NCBI GenBank assembly: GCA_016926755.1
Contig: JAFGNZ010000017.1
Location: 1 to 32,982 of the forward strand
From: Myxococcaceae bacterium
GTDB taxonomy: Bacteria; Myxococcota; Myxococcia; Myxococcales; Myxococcaceae
DNA: 32,982 bases
Direction of reading: 5' to 3'
This document shows positions 14,421 through 21,183 of this stretch, piece by piece. The first letter of the stretch is position 1. Each line of letters opens with the position of its first letter. A program made the translations under genes and the position numbers. The notes beneath the pieces are model-generated. The model saw nothing but the letters and a program-made list of their open reading frames with translations, was not told where the DNA came from and searched no databases.

Positions 14421-16064
14421 TCAGGCGGCCTCGGTGGCTCCGCGCCCCGAGACGTCGTCCCAGCCGAGCCCGAAGCGGGTGAGGTACTTCCGCAGCCGAT
14501 CCGCGTCATTGGTGCTCTGCTTCCGCGCCCGTGACTGGGCGAACAGCACGCGCCCGGCCTCCGACAGTGAGCGCGCCTGCCGGCACACGGAGATGACGTC
14601 CGCGAGCTGCACCCGGTCGAACCGATCCAGCTCCGCCGCCAGCTCCGAGCCGAGCACCTCCGCCACGAGATCCACCGCGCCCGCCGCCGCCGGGGAGGTG
14701 CTCCGCGTCCACTGCGCGCGCAGTCGGACGAGCTCCTCGTCCACGTCCTCCCGGGTGATGCGCCCTCCCGAGGCCAGCGTGGCCATGCGCAGCACCGCCG
14801 CGTTCAGGTCGCGGAAGTTGCCGCTCCAGCGGGCCTCGGGGGAGGTGGCGAAGCGCAGGAAGTGCTCCTGGGCCTCCTTGTTCATCGTCACCCGCTGGCC
14901 CAGCGCCTGGGAGGCCTGATCCAGCTCATAGAGGAGGTTGGGGGGGAGATCCTCGGGGCGCTCTCGCAGCGCGGGCAGCCGGAACGTCCACAGGTTGATG
15001 CGCGCCAGCAGATCCTCCCGGAAGCGCCCGCGCTCCACCTCCACCTGGAGATCCCGGTTCGTGCCGGCGATGAGCTGGAAGTCGCTCGCCACCTCCTTGT
15101 CCGAGCCCACCGGCAGGAAGCGCTTGTCCTCCAGCGCTCGCAGCAGCATGGCCTGCTCGTCCGCGCCCAGCTCGCCGATCTCGTCCAGGAACAGGACGCC
15201 CCCGTTCGCCTGGCGCAGCAGCCCGGGCCGGTCGCTCAGCGCCCCCGTGAAGGCGCCCCTCACGTGGCCAAACAGGGCGGACATGGCCCCGTCCCCGCGC
15301 AGCGTGGCGCAGTTGAGATCCACGAAGGGCCCGCTCACCTGCCGCCGCGCCTTCTTCAACGCGTAGATGCGCCGCGCGAGCTGGGACTTGCCCGCGCCCG
15401 TGGGCCCGGTGATGAGCAGCGGCGCGCGGGAGTGGCTGGCCACCTGTTCGATCCGCTCGATGAGCCGGTTGAACGCCGGGTTGAGCGTGTCGATGCCGGC
15501 CTTGAGGGAGGACAGGCCCTCGCGCTGCTCCTGCTGGAAGCGCGCGGCCAGCTTGTCGTACTTGGAGAGGTCCAGATCGATCAGGGTGTAGCTGCCCCCG
15601 CCGCCCAGCCCCTTGTCCCGCCCGACCGGTGGCGACGTCTGCACCAGCCTCGCGGGGATGTGCCGGCTCTCCACCAGCAGGAACATGCTGATCTGCGCGA
15701 TGTGCGTGCCGGTGGTGATGTGGACGAGGTAGTCCTCCTGTTCGGGCTGGAACGGATAGGCCCTCGCGTAGTCGAGCAGCGCTCCGTAGACCTGCTCCAG
15801 GTCCCACGGGTTCCGGATGTCCACCACCGCCCCGCGCACCTGCGTATCCGGTGACACCTGGTGGATGTCCTCTGTCACCGTCGCCGCCAGCAGCGTCGCC
15901 GAGGCCGGGTAGAGCAGCTCCAGCCGGTCCACCAGCAGATCCTCCTGCTGGCACAGGGCCACCGTGGGGCGCCATCGCTCCCAGCGCCTCGGGCCCTGCC
16001 CCTGGTCGATCGTCGTGCCGAGCATCCCGATGACGACTGTCTTGCGCCGCTGTGCCTTCGCCAT
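14421..16064 (-). CDS. rtcR: RtcR, sigma54-dependent activator of RNA repair genes
   Basis: A 547-residue regulator divergent from rtcB. The N-terminal part (about 1-180) is the CARF-like RtcR sensor, including HITTGTHIAQISMFLL. The AAA+ domain has Walker A GPTGAGKS (220-227), the sigma54-contact loop GAFTGA (270-275) and Walker B LFLDEIGEL (291-299). A C-terminal helix-turn-helix region (about 490-535) should bind upstream sites. In E. coli, RtcR is held off by its sensor until RNA damage ligands appear, then activates rtcBA with sigma54; the ligand is thought to be an RNA with a cyclic phosphate end. The length matches the family (about 530). The ATG at 16064 lacks a strong ribosome site. 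The gene is read away from rtcB. Confidence 0.95.
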   Translation of the reverse strand: MAKAQRRKTVVIGMLGTTIDQGQGPRRWERWRPTVALCQQEDLLVDRLELLYPASATLLAATVTEDIHQVSPDTQVRGAVVDIRNPWDLEQVYGALLDYARAYPFQPEQEDYLVHITTGTHIAQISMFLLVESRHIPARLVQTSPPVGRDKGLGGGGSYTLIDLDLSKYDKLAARFQQEQREGLSSLKAGIDTLNPAFNRLIERIEQVASHSRAPLLITGPTGAGKSQLARRIYALKKARRQVSGPFVDLNCATLRGDGAMSALFGHVRGAFTGALSDRPGLLRQANGGVLFLDEIGELGADEQAMLLRALEDKRFLPVGSDKEVASDFQLIAGTNRDLQVEVERGRFREDLLARINLWTFRLPALRERPEDLPPNLLYELDQASQALGQRVTMNKEAQEHFLRFATSPEARWSGNFRDLNAAVLRMATLASGGRITREDVDEELVRLRAQWTRSTSPAAAGAVDLVAEVLGSELAAELDRFDRVQLADVISVCRQARSLSEAGRVLFAQSRARKQSTNDADRLRKYLTRFGLGWDDVSGRGATEAA

Positions 16065-16077
16065 ACAGATACGACTT

Positions 16078-16100
16078 TATCCGATGGGATAGGGAATCGG
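16078..16100. promoter_or_regulatory. Candidate RtcR upstream activating site
   Basis: Two overlapping dyads lie 35-57 bases upstream of the -24 element: TATCC-gatg-GGATA (16078-16091) and CCGAT...ATCGG (16081-16100). Their position between rtcR and the sigma54 promoter suits an activator site, but RtcR's recognition sequence is not established here. Confidence 0.4.
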
Positions 16101-16134
16101 CCAGCGGTGGAGGCGCTCCCCTCGGAGAGAGGGC

Positions 16135-16150
16135 TGGCACGCCGGCTGCT
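16135..16150 (+). promoter_or_regulatory. Sigma54 (-24/-12) promoter of rtcBA
   Basis: The sequence tggcacgccggctgct matches the sigma54 consensus TGGCACRNNNNTTGCW at all fixed positions except one (C instead of T before TGC). Spacing between the GG and GC elements is exact. The expected start is near 16160, about 47 bases before the rtcB ATG. It fits control by the adjacent RtcR. Confidence 0.8.
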
Positions 16151-16206
16151 CTCCCTCCTCGCGTGCCTGGCACATGGGCTGGGCGAACGAGACGGAAGGC
16201 AAGGCC

Positions 16207-17433
<1,227 letters not shown>

Positions 17434-17467
17434 GCCCGGAGGTGAGGCGCGAGGAGACCATGCCGGG

Positions 17468-17524
17468 ATGAAGACACCGAGGCGCCCGCTCCCTCCGAGA
17501 CCGAGACATCGGTCGCTAGGTTGA
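17468..17524 (+). CDS. Candidate Pro/Arg-rich leader peptide before rtcA
   Basis: The short frame encodes MKTPRRPLPPRPRHRSLG and stops inside the descending arm of the large hairpin. A strong ribosome site (GAGGAG, 17451-17456) precedes it, and a 3-codon frame (ATG CCG GGA TGA, 17460-17471) overlaps its start. Consecutive Pro codons could slow ribosomes. Translation here would open the hairpin, so it could act as an attenuation leader; this is inference and the frame may be chance. Confidence 0.3.
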   Translation: MKTPRRPLPPRPRHRSLG

Positions 17525-17537
17525 GGGAGCGGGCGCC
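17481..17537 (+). terminator. Large nested hairpin between rtcB and rtcA
   Basis: The outer arms ggcgcccgctccctc (17481-17495) and gagggagcgggcgcc (17523-17537) are perfect 15-base complements. Inside, gaccga/tcggtc (17499-17514) closes a four-base loop. The sequence gctatttt follows directly, giving an intrinsic terminator shape. It lies 28 bases before the rtcA start, so it may be an attenuator, an mRNA stabiliser or a structured RNA substrate of the repair enzymes. Confidence 0.75.
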
Positions 17538-17564
17538 GCTATTTTGGGAGCAGAGGGTTCTCAC

Positions 17565-18581
17565 ATGGTGCGGATCGACGGTTCGAAGGGAGAGGGGGGC
17601 GGCCAGGTGCTGCGCACGTCGCTGGCGCTGTCGCTGGTGACGGGGACGCCCTTCCAGATGGTGAACATCCGGGCGGGGCGGCAGAAGCCCGGGCTGCTGC
17701 GCCAGCACCTGACGGCGGTGAAGGCGGCGGCGGAGGTGGGGGCGGCGGAGGTGACGGGGGCGGAGCTGGGCTCGCGCGAGCTGACGTTCAAGCCGCGGGC
17801 GCTGTCGGCGGGTAACTACTCCTTCGCGGTGGGGACGGCGGGCAGCGCGACGCTGGTGCTGCAGACGGTGCTGCCTGCGCTGATGCTGGCGAGCGGGCCG
17901 TCCACGCTGATGCTGGAGGGAGGGACGCACAACCCGGCGGCGCCGCCGTTCGACTTCTTGGAGAAGGCGTACCTGCCGCTGGTGCGGCGGATGGGGCCGA
18001 AGGTGGAGGCGGTGCTGGAGCGGTACGGCTTCTTCCCGGCGGGGGGAGGGAAGTTCCGGGTGAGCGTGGAGCCGGCGCCGCTGAGGCCGCTGACGCTGCT
18101 GGAGCGGGGGGCGGTGAAGCGGCGGCAGGCGACGGCGCTCATCGCGCAGCTCCCGTTCGACGTGGCGAAGCGGGAGCTGGCTGCGGTGGAGCGGGTGCTG
18201 AAGTGGAAGCCGACGGAGCTGCGGACGGAGGAGCTGAAGCGCTCGACGGGGCCAGGGAACGTGCTGTGGCTGGAGGTGGAGAGCGAGCACGTGACGGAGG
18301 TCTTCACGGCGTTCGGGGAGCGGGGCGTGAGGGCGGAGGAGGTGGCGGAGAGGGCGGCGGGGGCGGCCAGGCGCTACCTGGAGGCGGAGGTGCCGGTGGG
18401 AGAGAACCTGTGCGATCAGCTCCTGTTGCTACTGGCGCTGGCGAAGGGGGGCACGTTCCGGACGCTGCCGCTGGACGGGCACTCCGAGACGCAGCTCCAC
18501 ACGTTCTCGAACTTCCTGGACGTGAAGGTGGATGTCCGAGAAGTCTCGCCCGAGGTCCGCGAGGTGGAAGTGCGCGGGTAG
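17565..18581 (+). CDS. rtcA: RtcA, RNA 3'-terminal phosphate cyclase
   Basis: A 338-residue enzyme, equal in length to E. coli RtcA. It converts RNA 3'-phosphate to 2',3'-cyclic phosphate with ATP through an adenylated histidine. Visible features are the opening IDGSKGEGGGQVLRTSLALS, the segment AGNYSFAVGTAGSATLVLQTVLP, GGTHNPAAPPFDFLEKAYLP, and near the C-terminus GENLCDQLLLLLALAKGG and DGHSETQLHTFSNFLD, whose His is the expected nucleotidylation site region. The ATG at 17565 has GAGGG eight bases upstream. It follows rtcB beyond a hairpin, so its level may be set separately. Together with RtcB it repairs or remodels RNA ends. Confidence 0.96.
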   Translation: MVRIDGSKGEGGGQVLRTSLALSLVTGTPFQMVNIRAGRQKPGLLRQHLTAVKAAAEVGAAEVTGAELGSRELTFKPRALSAGNYSFAVGTAGSATLVLQTVLPALMLASGPSTLMLEGGTHNPAAPPFDFLEKAYLPLVRRMGPKVEAVLERYGFFPAGGGKFRVSVEPAPLRPLTLLERGAVKRRQATALIAQLPFDVAKRELAAVERVLKWKPTELRTEELKRSTGPGNVLWLEVESEHVTEVFTAFGERGVRAEEVAERAAGAARRYLEAEVPVGENLCDQLLLLLALAKGGTFRTLPLDGHSETQLHTFSNFLDVKVDVREVSPEVREVEVRG

Positions 18582-18583
18582 CA

Positions 18584-18602
18584 GCTTGACAGAGCGTCAA
18601 GC
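18584..18602. terminator. Hairpin between convergent rtcA and double-CXXCG gene
   Basis: The arms gcttgac and gtcaagc pair perfectly around agagc, three bases after the rtcA stop and 15 bases before the stop of the convergent gene. There is no T-run, but the position suits a bidirectional stop. Confidence 0.5.
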
Positions 18603-18616
18603 CTGCCAGCCTGTGG

Positions 18617-19665
<1,049 letters not shown>

Positions 19666-21183
19666 ATGGGGACGCGGCTACCCTTGCTGGAAGTAGATCC
19701 TCGCTCCTTGCCGCCGGGGGCACGGATGGGGTCATGGCGGATCAAGGGCTGGAGAGGGCGAGGCACCTACGGCACCGTCTACCGCGCAGAGCGTGCAGGC
19801 CGTGAGTGGGCCGGCTCGGTTGCCCTCAAGCTGGCCAACCACCCTCGAGATGAGCGCTTCGCGCGGGAGGCGGAGCTGCATTCGCGCATTCGGAGTCCCC
19901 ACGTTCCTCGTCTCCACGATCACGGCCTGTGGGAGCACCCATCCGGAGCCTTTCCTTTTCTGGTGATGGATTGGGTCGAGGGAGTTGAACTGTACGAGTG
20001 GGCCGCGCGGCGCAATCCCACCGAGCGTCAGGTGCTGGGGCTGCTGGCTCAGATGATGCGGGCGCTGGAGGCCACTCATGCCGTTGGTGGCGTGCACCGA
20101 GACGTCAAAGGCGGCAATGTACTGGTGAGGCTCTCGGACGGTTGGGCCTTCCTTACGGACTTCGGCGCGGGGTACTACCGGGGCGCTGCTACGCTCACCT
20201 CGAAGTTGCTGCCGCCGGGCACCCCCGCCTACCGGAGCCCCGAGGCCTGGGCGTTCCTGCGCGCGTTCCGGCGCCATCCCACGGTGCACTACCCGGCCAG
20301 CACGTGCGACGACCTGTTCGCGCTGGGGGTGATGGCGTACCGGCTGATGACGGACGAATACCCGCCGTCCACCGACCCGGAGGAGCCAAGGGCGAAGGTG
20401 TGGTGCGAGGGTGGGCCAGGGGCGCCACCAGTGCGAGGACTCAACCCCCGCGTGAGCCCGGAGACGGAGTCCGTCGTCTCGCGCCTGCTGGCCATTGCCC
20501 CAGTGGATCGTTTCCAGGGCAAGGCCCACGAGGCCGCTGAAGCGTTGGAGGAGGCGGCGCGGCGCGTTGGGCCCGAGGCGGACACTCCGCTCTTTGAATG
20601 GGGGCACGAGCACCGTCCCCGGTGGCGTTCTCCCGGAGGCGTGCGTCTGGCCGAGAAGCGGGACGCCGCTGCGAGGGAGGAACTGGCGCGGCGAGAGGAG
20701 GAGGCACGGGCTCGAGGAGACGCTGCTGACAGGCAGCCGCCACTCCGGCCCCGAGTGAATGTGTGGGGAGTGGAAGGGGTGGTGGCCGCCGCGGGGCTGT
20801 TGTTCGTCTCGTTCGTGGTGGCGTTGCTGTACCGAGGGCCGCAGAGGGGACAGAGCAGCGCGCAGAGAGACGCCCGAGAGGGCGGCGTCGTGGCGGTAGG
20901 CGACAGCGACAGCGCCGCTTCGAAGCAAGCCTCCGCTCCTTCAGACGGCGCAGGCCGGACACTCGGGTCGCCCATGCCCGAGAAGCCCCTTCCCGGTCAG
21001 CGCAAGCCCCCGTGCAACAGGACTGGAGAGGTAGCGATTCGGGGCGGGTGCTGGTACGCGCTGCGCGACGCGAGGCCGCCGTGCAAGGAGGAGGGCAAAG
21101 AGGATGCGTACGCCTGGGAGGGGGCTTGCTACGGCCCTTCATTCCCTGTCCAACGCCCACCCACCTCAAGCCCACCTTATTAG
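19666..21183 (+). CDS. Membrane-anchored Ser/Thr protein kinase, paralog of the kinase at 551-2020
   Basis: A 505-residue kinase with GRGTYGTVYRA, ALKLA (ATP lysine), HRDVKGGNV, DFGAGYY and GTPAYRSPEAW, all intact. A charged helix and linker lead to one transmembrane segment (about 375-393, GVVAAAGLLFVSFVVALLY). The periplasmic end repeats the tail of the first kinase: KPLPGQRKPPC, then three more Cys with the same spacing pattern (GGCWYALR, RPPC, WEGACYGP). The start at 19666 is chosen because GGAGGG lies six bases upstream; a GTG at 19642 would extend it by eight residues. Its stop overlaps the convergent M23 gene's stop by four bases. The ligand and targets are unknown. Confidence 0.93.
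   Translation: MGTRLPLLEVDPRSLPPGARMGSWRIKGWRGRGTYGTVYRAERAGREWAGSVALKLANHPRDERFAREAELHSRIRSPHVPRLHDHGLWEHPSGAFPFLVMDWVEGVELYEWAARRNPTERQVLGLLAQMMRALEATHAVGGVHRDVKGGNVLVRLSDGWAFLTDFGAGYYRGAATLTSKLLPPGTPAYRSPEAWAFLRAFRRHPTVHYPASTCDDLFALGVMAYRLMTDEYPPSTDPEEPRAKVWCEGGPGAPPVRGLNPRVSPETESVVSRLLAIAPVDRFQGKAHEAAEALEEAARRVGPEADTPLFEWGHEHRPRWRSPGGVRLAEKRDAAAREELARREEEARARGDAADRQPPLRPRVNVWGVEGVVAAAGLLFVSFVVALLYRGPQRGQSSAQRDAREGGVVAVGDSDSAASKQASAPSDGAGRTLGSPMPEKPLPGQRKPPCNRTGEVAIRGGCWYALRDARPPCKEEGKEDAYAWEGACYGPSFPVQRPPTSSPPY

Follow-up and report, generated by a model that had tools for sequence, protein, structure and literature searches.

A conserved three-codon mini-ORF and hairpin at the 3′ end of rtcB in Myxococcaceae, a possible ribosome-gated boundary before rtcA

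The window analyzed here, a whole stretch of 32,982 bases, contains an rtc locus in which the genes for an RNA ligase and an RNA 3′-phosphate cyclase follow each other on the forward strand. The ligase gene rtcB is an open reading frame (16174..17433, + strand; PF01139 match, E 3.7e-129) whose start may be at 16207, and the cyclase gene rtcA lies at 17565..18581 (+ strand; PF01137, E 2.8e-76, and PF05189). Upstream of rtcB and divergent from it is rtcR, encoding a sigma-54-dependent activator (14421..16064, − strand; PF06956 and PF00158). A sigma-54-type promoter, TGGCAC-N5-CTGC (TGGCACGCCGGCTGC, 16135..16149, + strand), was called upstream of rtcB by a motif match to the sigma-54 consensus. 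The motif was present at the corresponding place in 17 of the 18 named loci with enough flank (24 named loci in all) and in 19 of 30 loci with 1.5-kb flanks, several of which probably stop short of the promoter. One locus, L023, lacks the motif though its flank should reach.

Between rtcB and rtcA, 47 nt after the rtcB stop (17433 to 17481), lies an outer hairpin with a 15-bp stem (17481..17537, + strand), which is supported by an inverted-repeat search, folding and covariation. The original prediction described an error-free 15-bp inverted repeat with a nested stem, and both were recovered: the arms GGCGCCCGCTCCCTC (17481-17495) and GAGGGAGCGGGCGCC (17523-17537) are fully complementary around a loop of 27 nt, within which an inner hairpin (17499..17514, + strand) is formed by the 6-bp pairing of GACCGA (17499-17504) with TCGGTC (17509-17514) around the loop GACA. 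The gctatttt it placed behind the hairpin is likewise there, as GCTATTTT directly 3′ of the stem (17538-17545). The stretch 17537..17545 (+ strand) thus comprises CGCTA, invariant in a 60-copy alignment, and a T-rich tail TTTT, and GCTA stands between the stem and its U-run. Nowhere else in the 32,982 bases do arms of 11 bp or more pair without error across a loop of 3-60 nt, and among 200 first-order Markov simulations of the window, an inverted repeat of at least 15 bp arose in 2 and one of at least 13 bp in 14. The fold of 17461-17560 has an energy of -52.1 kcal/mol, compared with -37.2 ± 3.7 for shuffled sequences (z -4.05; 0 of 200 as good). A terminator consensus scan of 15000-20000, which accepts loops of 3-8 nt only, reported no terminator.

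The hairpin is the core of a larger conserved element that starts with a mini-ORF; the original prediction captured the hairpin and overlooked the conserved reading frame upstream of it. This frame, ATG CCG GGA TGA (M-P-G-stop), occupies 17460..17471 (+ strand) and is preceded by a Shine-Dalgarno-like GAGGAG at 17451..17456 (+ strand). A 9-nt spacer (17472..17480, + strand) separates the stop codon from the stem, and its last bases are the GA of a GAG that the alignment showed to be invariant.

Among the 96 genomes of the window's family, 87 have an rtcA match, with an identity of at least 74% in 64. The stretch upstream of rtcA was taken from 70 loci, 59 of which contain the element by a regular-expression match. 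Together with L010, which was added by hand, these 59 make up an alignment of 60 rows (56 distinct, the window's copy included); it leaves out L041, whose element has one arm mismatch, and the genomes G057 and G058, and all three of these carry ATG CCG GGA TGA. Foreign sequence replaces the left part of the element in L029, while in L063 and L067 the element is absent from the last 200 nt before rtcA and present further upstream in their genomes. Five loci, L080-L084, are devoid of the element, and their genomes gave no covariance-model match at E 1; in L081-L083 the spacing between rtcB and rtcA is 2-6 nt. The genome of L085, a locus whose orientation is not settled, is likewise without a covariance-model match.

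Conservation of the pairing in related genomes was the check named by the original prediction, and the pairing proved to be kept with compensatory changes, which supports a functional RNA structure. Over the 60 copies the outer helix is 99.5% paired, both sides have changed at 8 of its 15 pairs, and the double changes fall on 12 branches of a tree built from rtcB/rtcA coding DNA. For the whole structure, 46 cells with double changes were counted vs 9.5 in shuffles, and the covariation score was 0.224 vs 0.139, with 0 of 500 shuffles as high in either measure. The share of paired cells was 89.8%, vs 85.8% in shuffles and 44-65% with the partner slid. Pairs with a both-sided change numbered 8 vs 5.4 in shuffles (12 of 500 as high); the number of pair types, 20 vs 18.5, was matched by 97 of 500 shuffles and this measure is therefore not informative. 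The inner stem is 52.7% paired as aligned, as each genus has its own build of the apical part, with differing lengths and loops; in seven congeneric copies the inner stem-loop folds in each. Since the apical part varies and the outer helix is kept, the conserved core consists of the outer stem and its base. The T-rich tail is found in 46 of the 60 copies, and the other 14 have CGTG or CGTT there instead. No anti-terminator partner was noticed by eye in the 60-row alignment. A second palindromic stretch, CTCTCCC..GGGAGAG, was seen by eye between the element and rtcA in the six genus-g3 genomes (L030, L032, L035, L036, L045 and L054).

The mini-ORF is conserved together with the hairpin. Under a permissive motif, a Shine-Dalgarno-like sequence lies upstream in all 60 aligned copies, at 4-7 nt from the start in 58, the stretch scored in L010 being rtcB coding sequence. 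The first codon is ATG in 59 copies, the second is CCG in 48, AGG in 10 and AAG in 2, the third is GGA in 60 of 60, and the stop is TGA in 46, TAG in 12 and TAA in 2, with 4 switches by parsimony. The full series of Shine-Dalgarno-like motif, ATG, two codons and stop is present in 59 of 60 copies. The stop and the first paired base are 9 nt apart in 53 copies and 10 nt apart in the remaining 7. GAG and CGCTA occur in 60 of 60 copies, and the columns of GGGAT, GAG and CGCTA show 0 changes on the tree; for comparison, seven left-edge bases changed 9-19 times each, and 64 fourfold-degenerate sites changed 5.8 times on average, 6 of them also without any change. The exceptional copy, L010, has lost the mini-ORF by a deletion relative to its relatives, and the position 10 nt ahead of the hairpin is taken instead by the end of rtcB, GTG AAG GGA TAG. 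In all 60 copies RtcB ends in V-K-G-stop, for which any of the four Gly codons is used, so it is in the mini-ORF that GGA is fixed. Because the stop varies among TGA, TAG and TAA and yet is a stop in every copy, the pattern points to translation and not to a motif alone, and from the sequence we infer that the mini-ORF is translated.

Run against 145 genomes of the order, a covariance model of the element matched strongly in 63 (E at most 1.5e-12), and a run against 195 genomes of the phylum gave strong matches in the same 63. Model searches over 40 genomes used stricter filters and scored the best 20-27 first-look candidates per genome, and weak or divergent copies may escape them. Among these best 20-27 candidates, each of the 63 genomes has a single strong match, which lies behind rtcB, and no other strong match appeared in the 195 genomes. 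The 63 are all the family genomes with an rtcA at least 74% identical, except G074, a Myxococcus-group genome. There (L123, G074:C141:647-2900), a frame with PF00872 (Transposase, Mutator family), split by a stop into two adjacent pieces, takes the place of the hairpin's left part, and the right half of the hairpin remains near 1917, before rtcA. A pattern scan of named genomes (25 stretches) found the element under the titles Myxococcus, Corallococcus, Pyxidicoccus, Archangium, Hyalangium and Citreicoccus, as well as in one Myxococcaceae MAG and under two stray titles. A record titled Comamonas sp. KCTC 72670 (L133) carries the myxobacterial rtc element, and its title is probably wrong. A match in Gulosibacter (L128) lies in coding sequence and looks like chance. 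Separately, two rtcA-like matches are present in 64 of the 96 family genomes, the second being distant (about 34-42% identity among the matches listed) and visible, for example, at L016-L022.

From the last paired base to rtcA there are 25 to 143 nt in 59 copies, and for this reason sequestering of the rtcA ribosome site by the hairpin is unlikely. In G057 and G058 (L121 and L122) the distance is about 700 nt: rtcB ends at 781, the intact element lies at 822-896, rtcA starts from about 1590, and between the element and rtcA runs an opposite-strand open frame that is lipoprotein-like and has repeated Cys motifs. Since the element is kept in these two genomes where another gene separates rtcA, it goes with the 3′ end of rtcB, and the same two genomes speak against an effect that needs rtcA adjacent. 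This weakens a description of the element as being for rtcA and favors one as belonging to the rtcB 3′ end. By its structure, covariation, mini-ORF, fixed spacing and link to rtcB, it is a conserved RNA element of the cis-acting kind that lies within the rtcBA operon where rtcB ends.

We compared the element with look-alikes. REP-like intercistronic stabilizing hairpins are stable hairpins between the genes of an operon, from which the rtc element differs by its single strong copy per genome (among the best 20-27 candidates scored), its invariant stem foot and its coupled mini-ORF. A REP/BIME or other dispersed repeat was rejected, as the next best DNA match in the window's own genome has E 0.0036 and lies in other sequence; the one strong model match per genome (same 20-27 candidates) also counters a repeat. 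A kink-turn and other named internal loops were weighed for GA/GCUA, and none is claimed. A further 22 weak covariance loci (L101-L120, L124 and L125; best match in G007, E 2.6e-4) were not counted as copies; inspection by eye showed coding stretches, hairpins that follow tRNA-Glu genes, or unrelated hairpins. In three family genomes (L101, L106 and L107), confirmed tRNA-Glu genes have GCGCCCGC-armed hairpins behind them, of a GAGGCGCCCGC or GAAGCGCCCGC type similar to the rtc hairpin and with T-rich tails, which possibly represent a common terminator style of Myxococcaceae.

The combination of mini-ORF and hairpin was also counted as a pattern. In 25 sequences (223,057 bases, both strands), which cover the DNA around rtc plus the window only, a Shine-Dalgarno motif, ATG, two codons and a stop gave 64 matches including overlaps. 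A perfect stem of at least 10 bp follows 7-11 nt on in 22 of them, at 10 places, all of which are the rtc element. A related pattern matched 5 times in the window's own genome, 4 of them outside the element, and a reversed-pattern control matched 0 times. The 80 nt downstream of those 4 fold at -23 to -32 kcal/mol, and no comparable hairpin was seen there by eye.

No Rfam family reached its gathering score in the window; sub-threshold matches in 17400-17620 numbered 16, 8 of them to miRNA models, and all were far below the cut-offs. No tRNA gene was found in the window, in agreement with the remark in the original prediction that the hairpin lacks tRNA-like features. Its lead towards a Y RNA-type molecule fell away: a search for the TROVE/Ro60 protein gave no match over the cut-off in 30 genomes, with one sub-threshold match in G133 and no match in the window's own genome, while the Deinobacterium control was detected, and the Rfam result points the same way. 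We found no published description of the element in the open literature searched, which does not prove that there is none, and we regard it as a new RNA family that represents a variant of the attenuators with a minimal uORF.

Given these features, we tentatively favor, at somewhat below an even chance, the view that the rtcB mRNA has a leaky terminator or 3′ boundary gated by ribosomes, through which the RtcA:RtcB ratio is set. The suggestion of the original prediction that the hairpin may attenuate rtcA, joined with the mini-ORF, is thus the leading mechanism. The element has two parts: an ORF of three codons (M-P/R/K-G-stop), equipped with a ribosome site of its own, and a hairpin that begins 9-10 nt past the stop on an invariant GAG/CGCTA base. 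When no ribosome is present, the hairpin would fold behind RNA polymerase and act as a leaky terminator and 3′-end block, and rtcB would exceed rtcA. The mini-ORF would recruit a ribosome, which at the stop codon would cover the mRNA to about the hairpin base; parked there it would impede closing of the base, and the polymerase would continue into rtcA. Translation capacity would in this way set the RtcA:RtcB ratio and, via RtcA, how strongly RtcR receives feedback. Termination or blocking by the hairpin, its relief by ribosomes and the effect on feedback are steps we infer; a ribosome-hindered hairpin best fits the translated-looking mini-ORF, the fixed distance and the invariant stem foot together. 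The single strong match in 63 of the 64 genomes, the helix covariation, the T-rich tail of 46 of the 60 copies, the similar hairpins after tRNA-Glu genes and the rtcB stop 10 nt before the hairpin in L010 also count for gating. The 14 copies with CGTG or CGTT, the terminator scan that made no call (loops of 3-8 nt), the want of an anti-terminator noticed by eye and the two genomes with a gene ahead of rtcA count against it.

A precedent for such gating comes from E. coli (PMC4824070), where terminator efficiency dropped from ~90% to <10% when the distance between a stop codon and the terminator was cut from 28 to 5 bp, and this repression by the stop-codon ribosome vanished without translation. 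The same source puts the reach of the ribosome footprint at about 10 nt beyond the A site and gives the authors' estimate that full folding needs at least 10-15 nt free beyond it. By this estimate the rtcB stop at 47 nt is too far away, and the mini-ORF would supply the ribosome. GAG and CGCTA at the stem foot coincide with the expected edge of the area covered by a ribosome on the mini-ORF stop. The hairpin region folds at a mean of -41.5 kcal/mol over the 60 copies, and with the nucleotides after the stop masked the mean is -40.2 kcal/mol for 10 nt, -35.8 for 12 nt and -26.3 for 15 nt. As a 10-nt mask leaves the fold nearly at its full energy, a ribosome that is to weaken the hairpin must cover more than about 10 nt and extend beyond the first pairs of the stem, which counts against gating.

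These energies also bear on a rival that we consider less probable than gating and still a serious one, in which the element protects or processes the 3′ end of the rtcB mRNA and does not regulate transcription into rtcA. The hairpin would stop 3′-to-5′ exonucleases or be the target of a double-strand RNase, and a parked ribosome would shield the stretch upstream. Very stable hairpins that stay folded under the 10-nt mask suit this role, as does the retention of the element with rtcB where another gene separates rtcA. The 14 of 60 copies without a T-run also favor it: intrinsic termination is then not the shared function unless little U is needed, and these copies, with CGTG or CGTT, fit a terminator poorly, which makes 3′-end protection or processing a close rival. 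By itself, however, protection leaves the 9-10 nt stop spacing, the invariant GGA and the CGCTA unexplained.

An ordinary leaky intrinsic terminator, with the mini-ORF a motif that reads as an ORF by chance, is unlikely. It would account for the GC-rich stem with a T-rich tail in 46 of 60 copies, and similar hairpins do follow tRNA genes. Against it, all three stop codons are used while the Shine-Dalgarno-like motif and the ATG are conserved, L010 substitutes the rtcB stop for the mini-ORF without a change in distance, a T-run is missing from 14 of 60 copies, and the GAG/CGCTA base is invariant.

Two readings tie the element to the Rtc system itself. In the first, an improbable one in our view, the rtc operon carries its own gauge of translation damage in the form of a Gly(GGA)-stop ribosome set against the hairpin base. 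Damage to termination, tRNA or rRNA would make the ribosome stall or the mRNA be cut at the mini-ORF stop, and the GAG/CGCTA junction would then switch rtcA or yield ends that RtcA, RtcB or RtcR read directly. Slightly less probable again is that the Rtc proteins recognize the element itself, or a piece released from it through damage by ribosomes or nucleases around the mini-ORF, as a substrate of RtcB/RtcA or as a ligand of the CARF-type domain of RtcR. The original prediction had also named an RtcB/RtcA substrate in its own mRNA, towards which the sequence is neutral. The strict link to the rtc operon, with one strong match per genome among the best 20-27 candidates scored, and the invariant bases at the stem foot would agree with such a role, whereas more distant family members, for example those with the 2-6 nt spacing (L081-L083), do without the element. 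A bacterial Y RNA or other Ro60-bound RNA, a reading that draws on the Y RNA genes in the Salmonella rtcBA operon (PMC7790460), was rejected as having next to no chance, given no TROVE match over the cut-off in the 30 genomes (one sub-threshold), no Rfam match and no tRNA gene.

Returning to the ribosome-gated reading, a close counterpart is the vmlR attenuator of Bacillus subtilis, in which the minimal ORF, uORF(MIN), also works as MDN, MDK or MRK (PMC9226507). Both have a minimal three-residue ORF with its own Shine-Dalgarno sequence before hairpins and variable residues, here MPG, MRG and MKG. The vmlR leader controls its downstream gene with a terminator and an anti-terminator. Unlike it, the rtc element lies between two operon genes, its stop abuts the hairpin, its GGA is invariant, and no anti-terminator was noticed by eye. 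With the tR2 test system (PMC4824070) it shares a stop-to-hairpin distance at or just below the range reckoned for free folding; there the stop is the end of a reporter gene, whereas in the rtc element the ribosome would come from a dedicated mini-ORF, and only 46 of 60 copies, not the other 14, have a T-rich tail. Like the Y RNAs of rsr-yrl-rtcBA (PMC7790460), it is an RNA structure at an rtc locus, but no Ro60 was found over the cut-off in the 30 genomes, it has no tRNA-like part, and it occupies the rtcB-rtcA spacer and not the region upstream of rtcB.

How bacteria control RtcA against RtcB, and what Rtc senses, are known only in part. In Salmonella, expression of RtcA is enough to activate the operon (PMC7790460), and on that account an element that reads translation and is placed between the two genes would be positioned where the gain of the loop is controlled. 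In E. coli, a recent study has linked Rtc to resistance against ribosome-targeting antibiotics (PMC12606134), and a translation-read device at this position would be well placed. If the reading is true, an operon-internal three-codon ORF, outside any leader and docked at a constant distance to the invariant foot of a hairpin, would widen the known range of ribosome-read switches.
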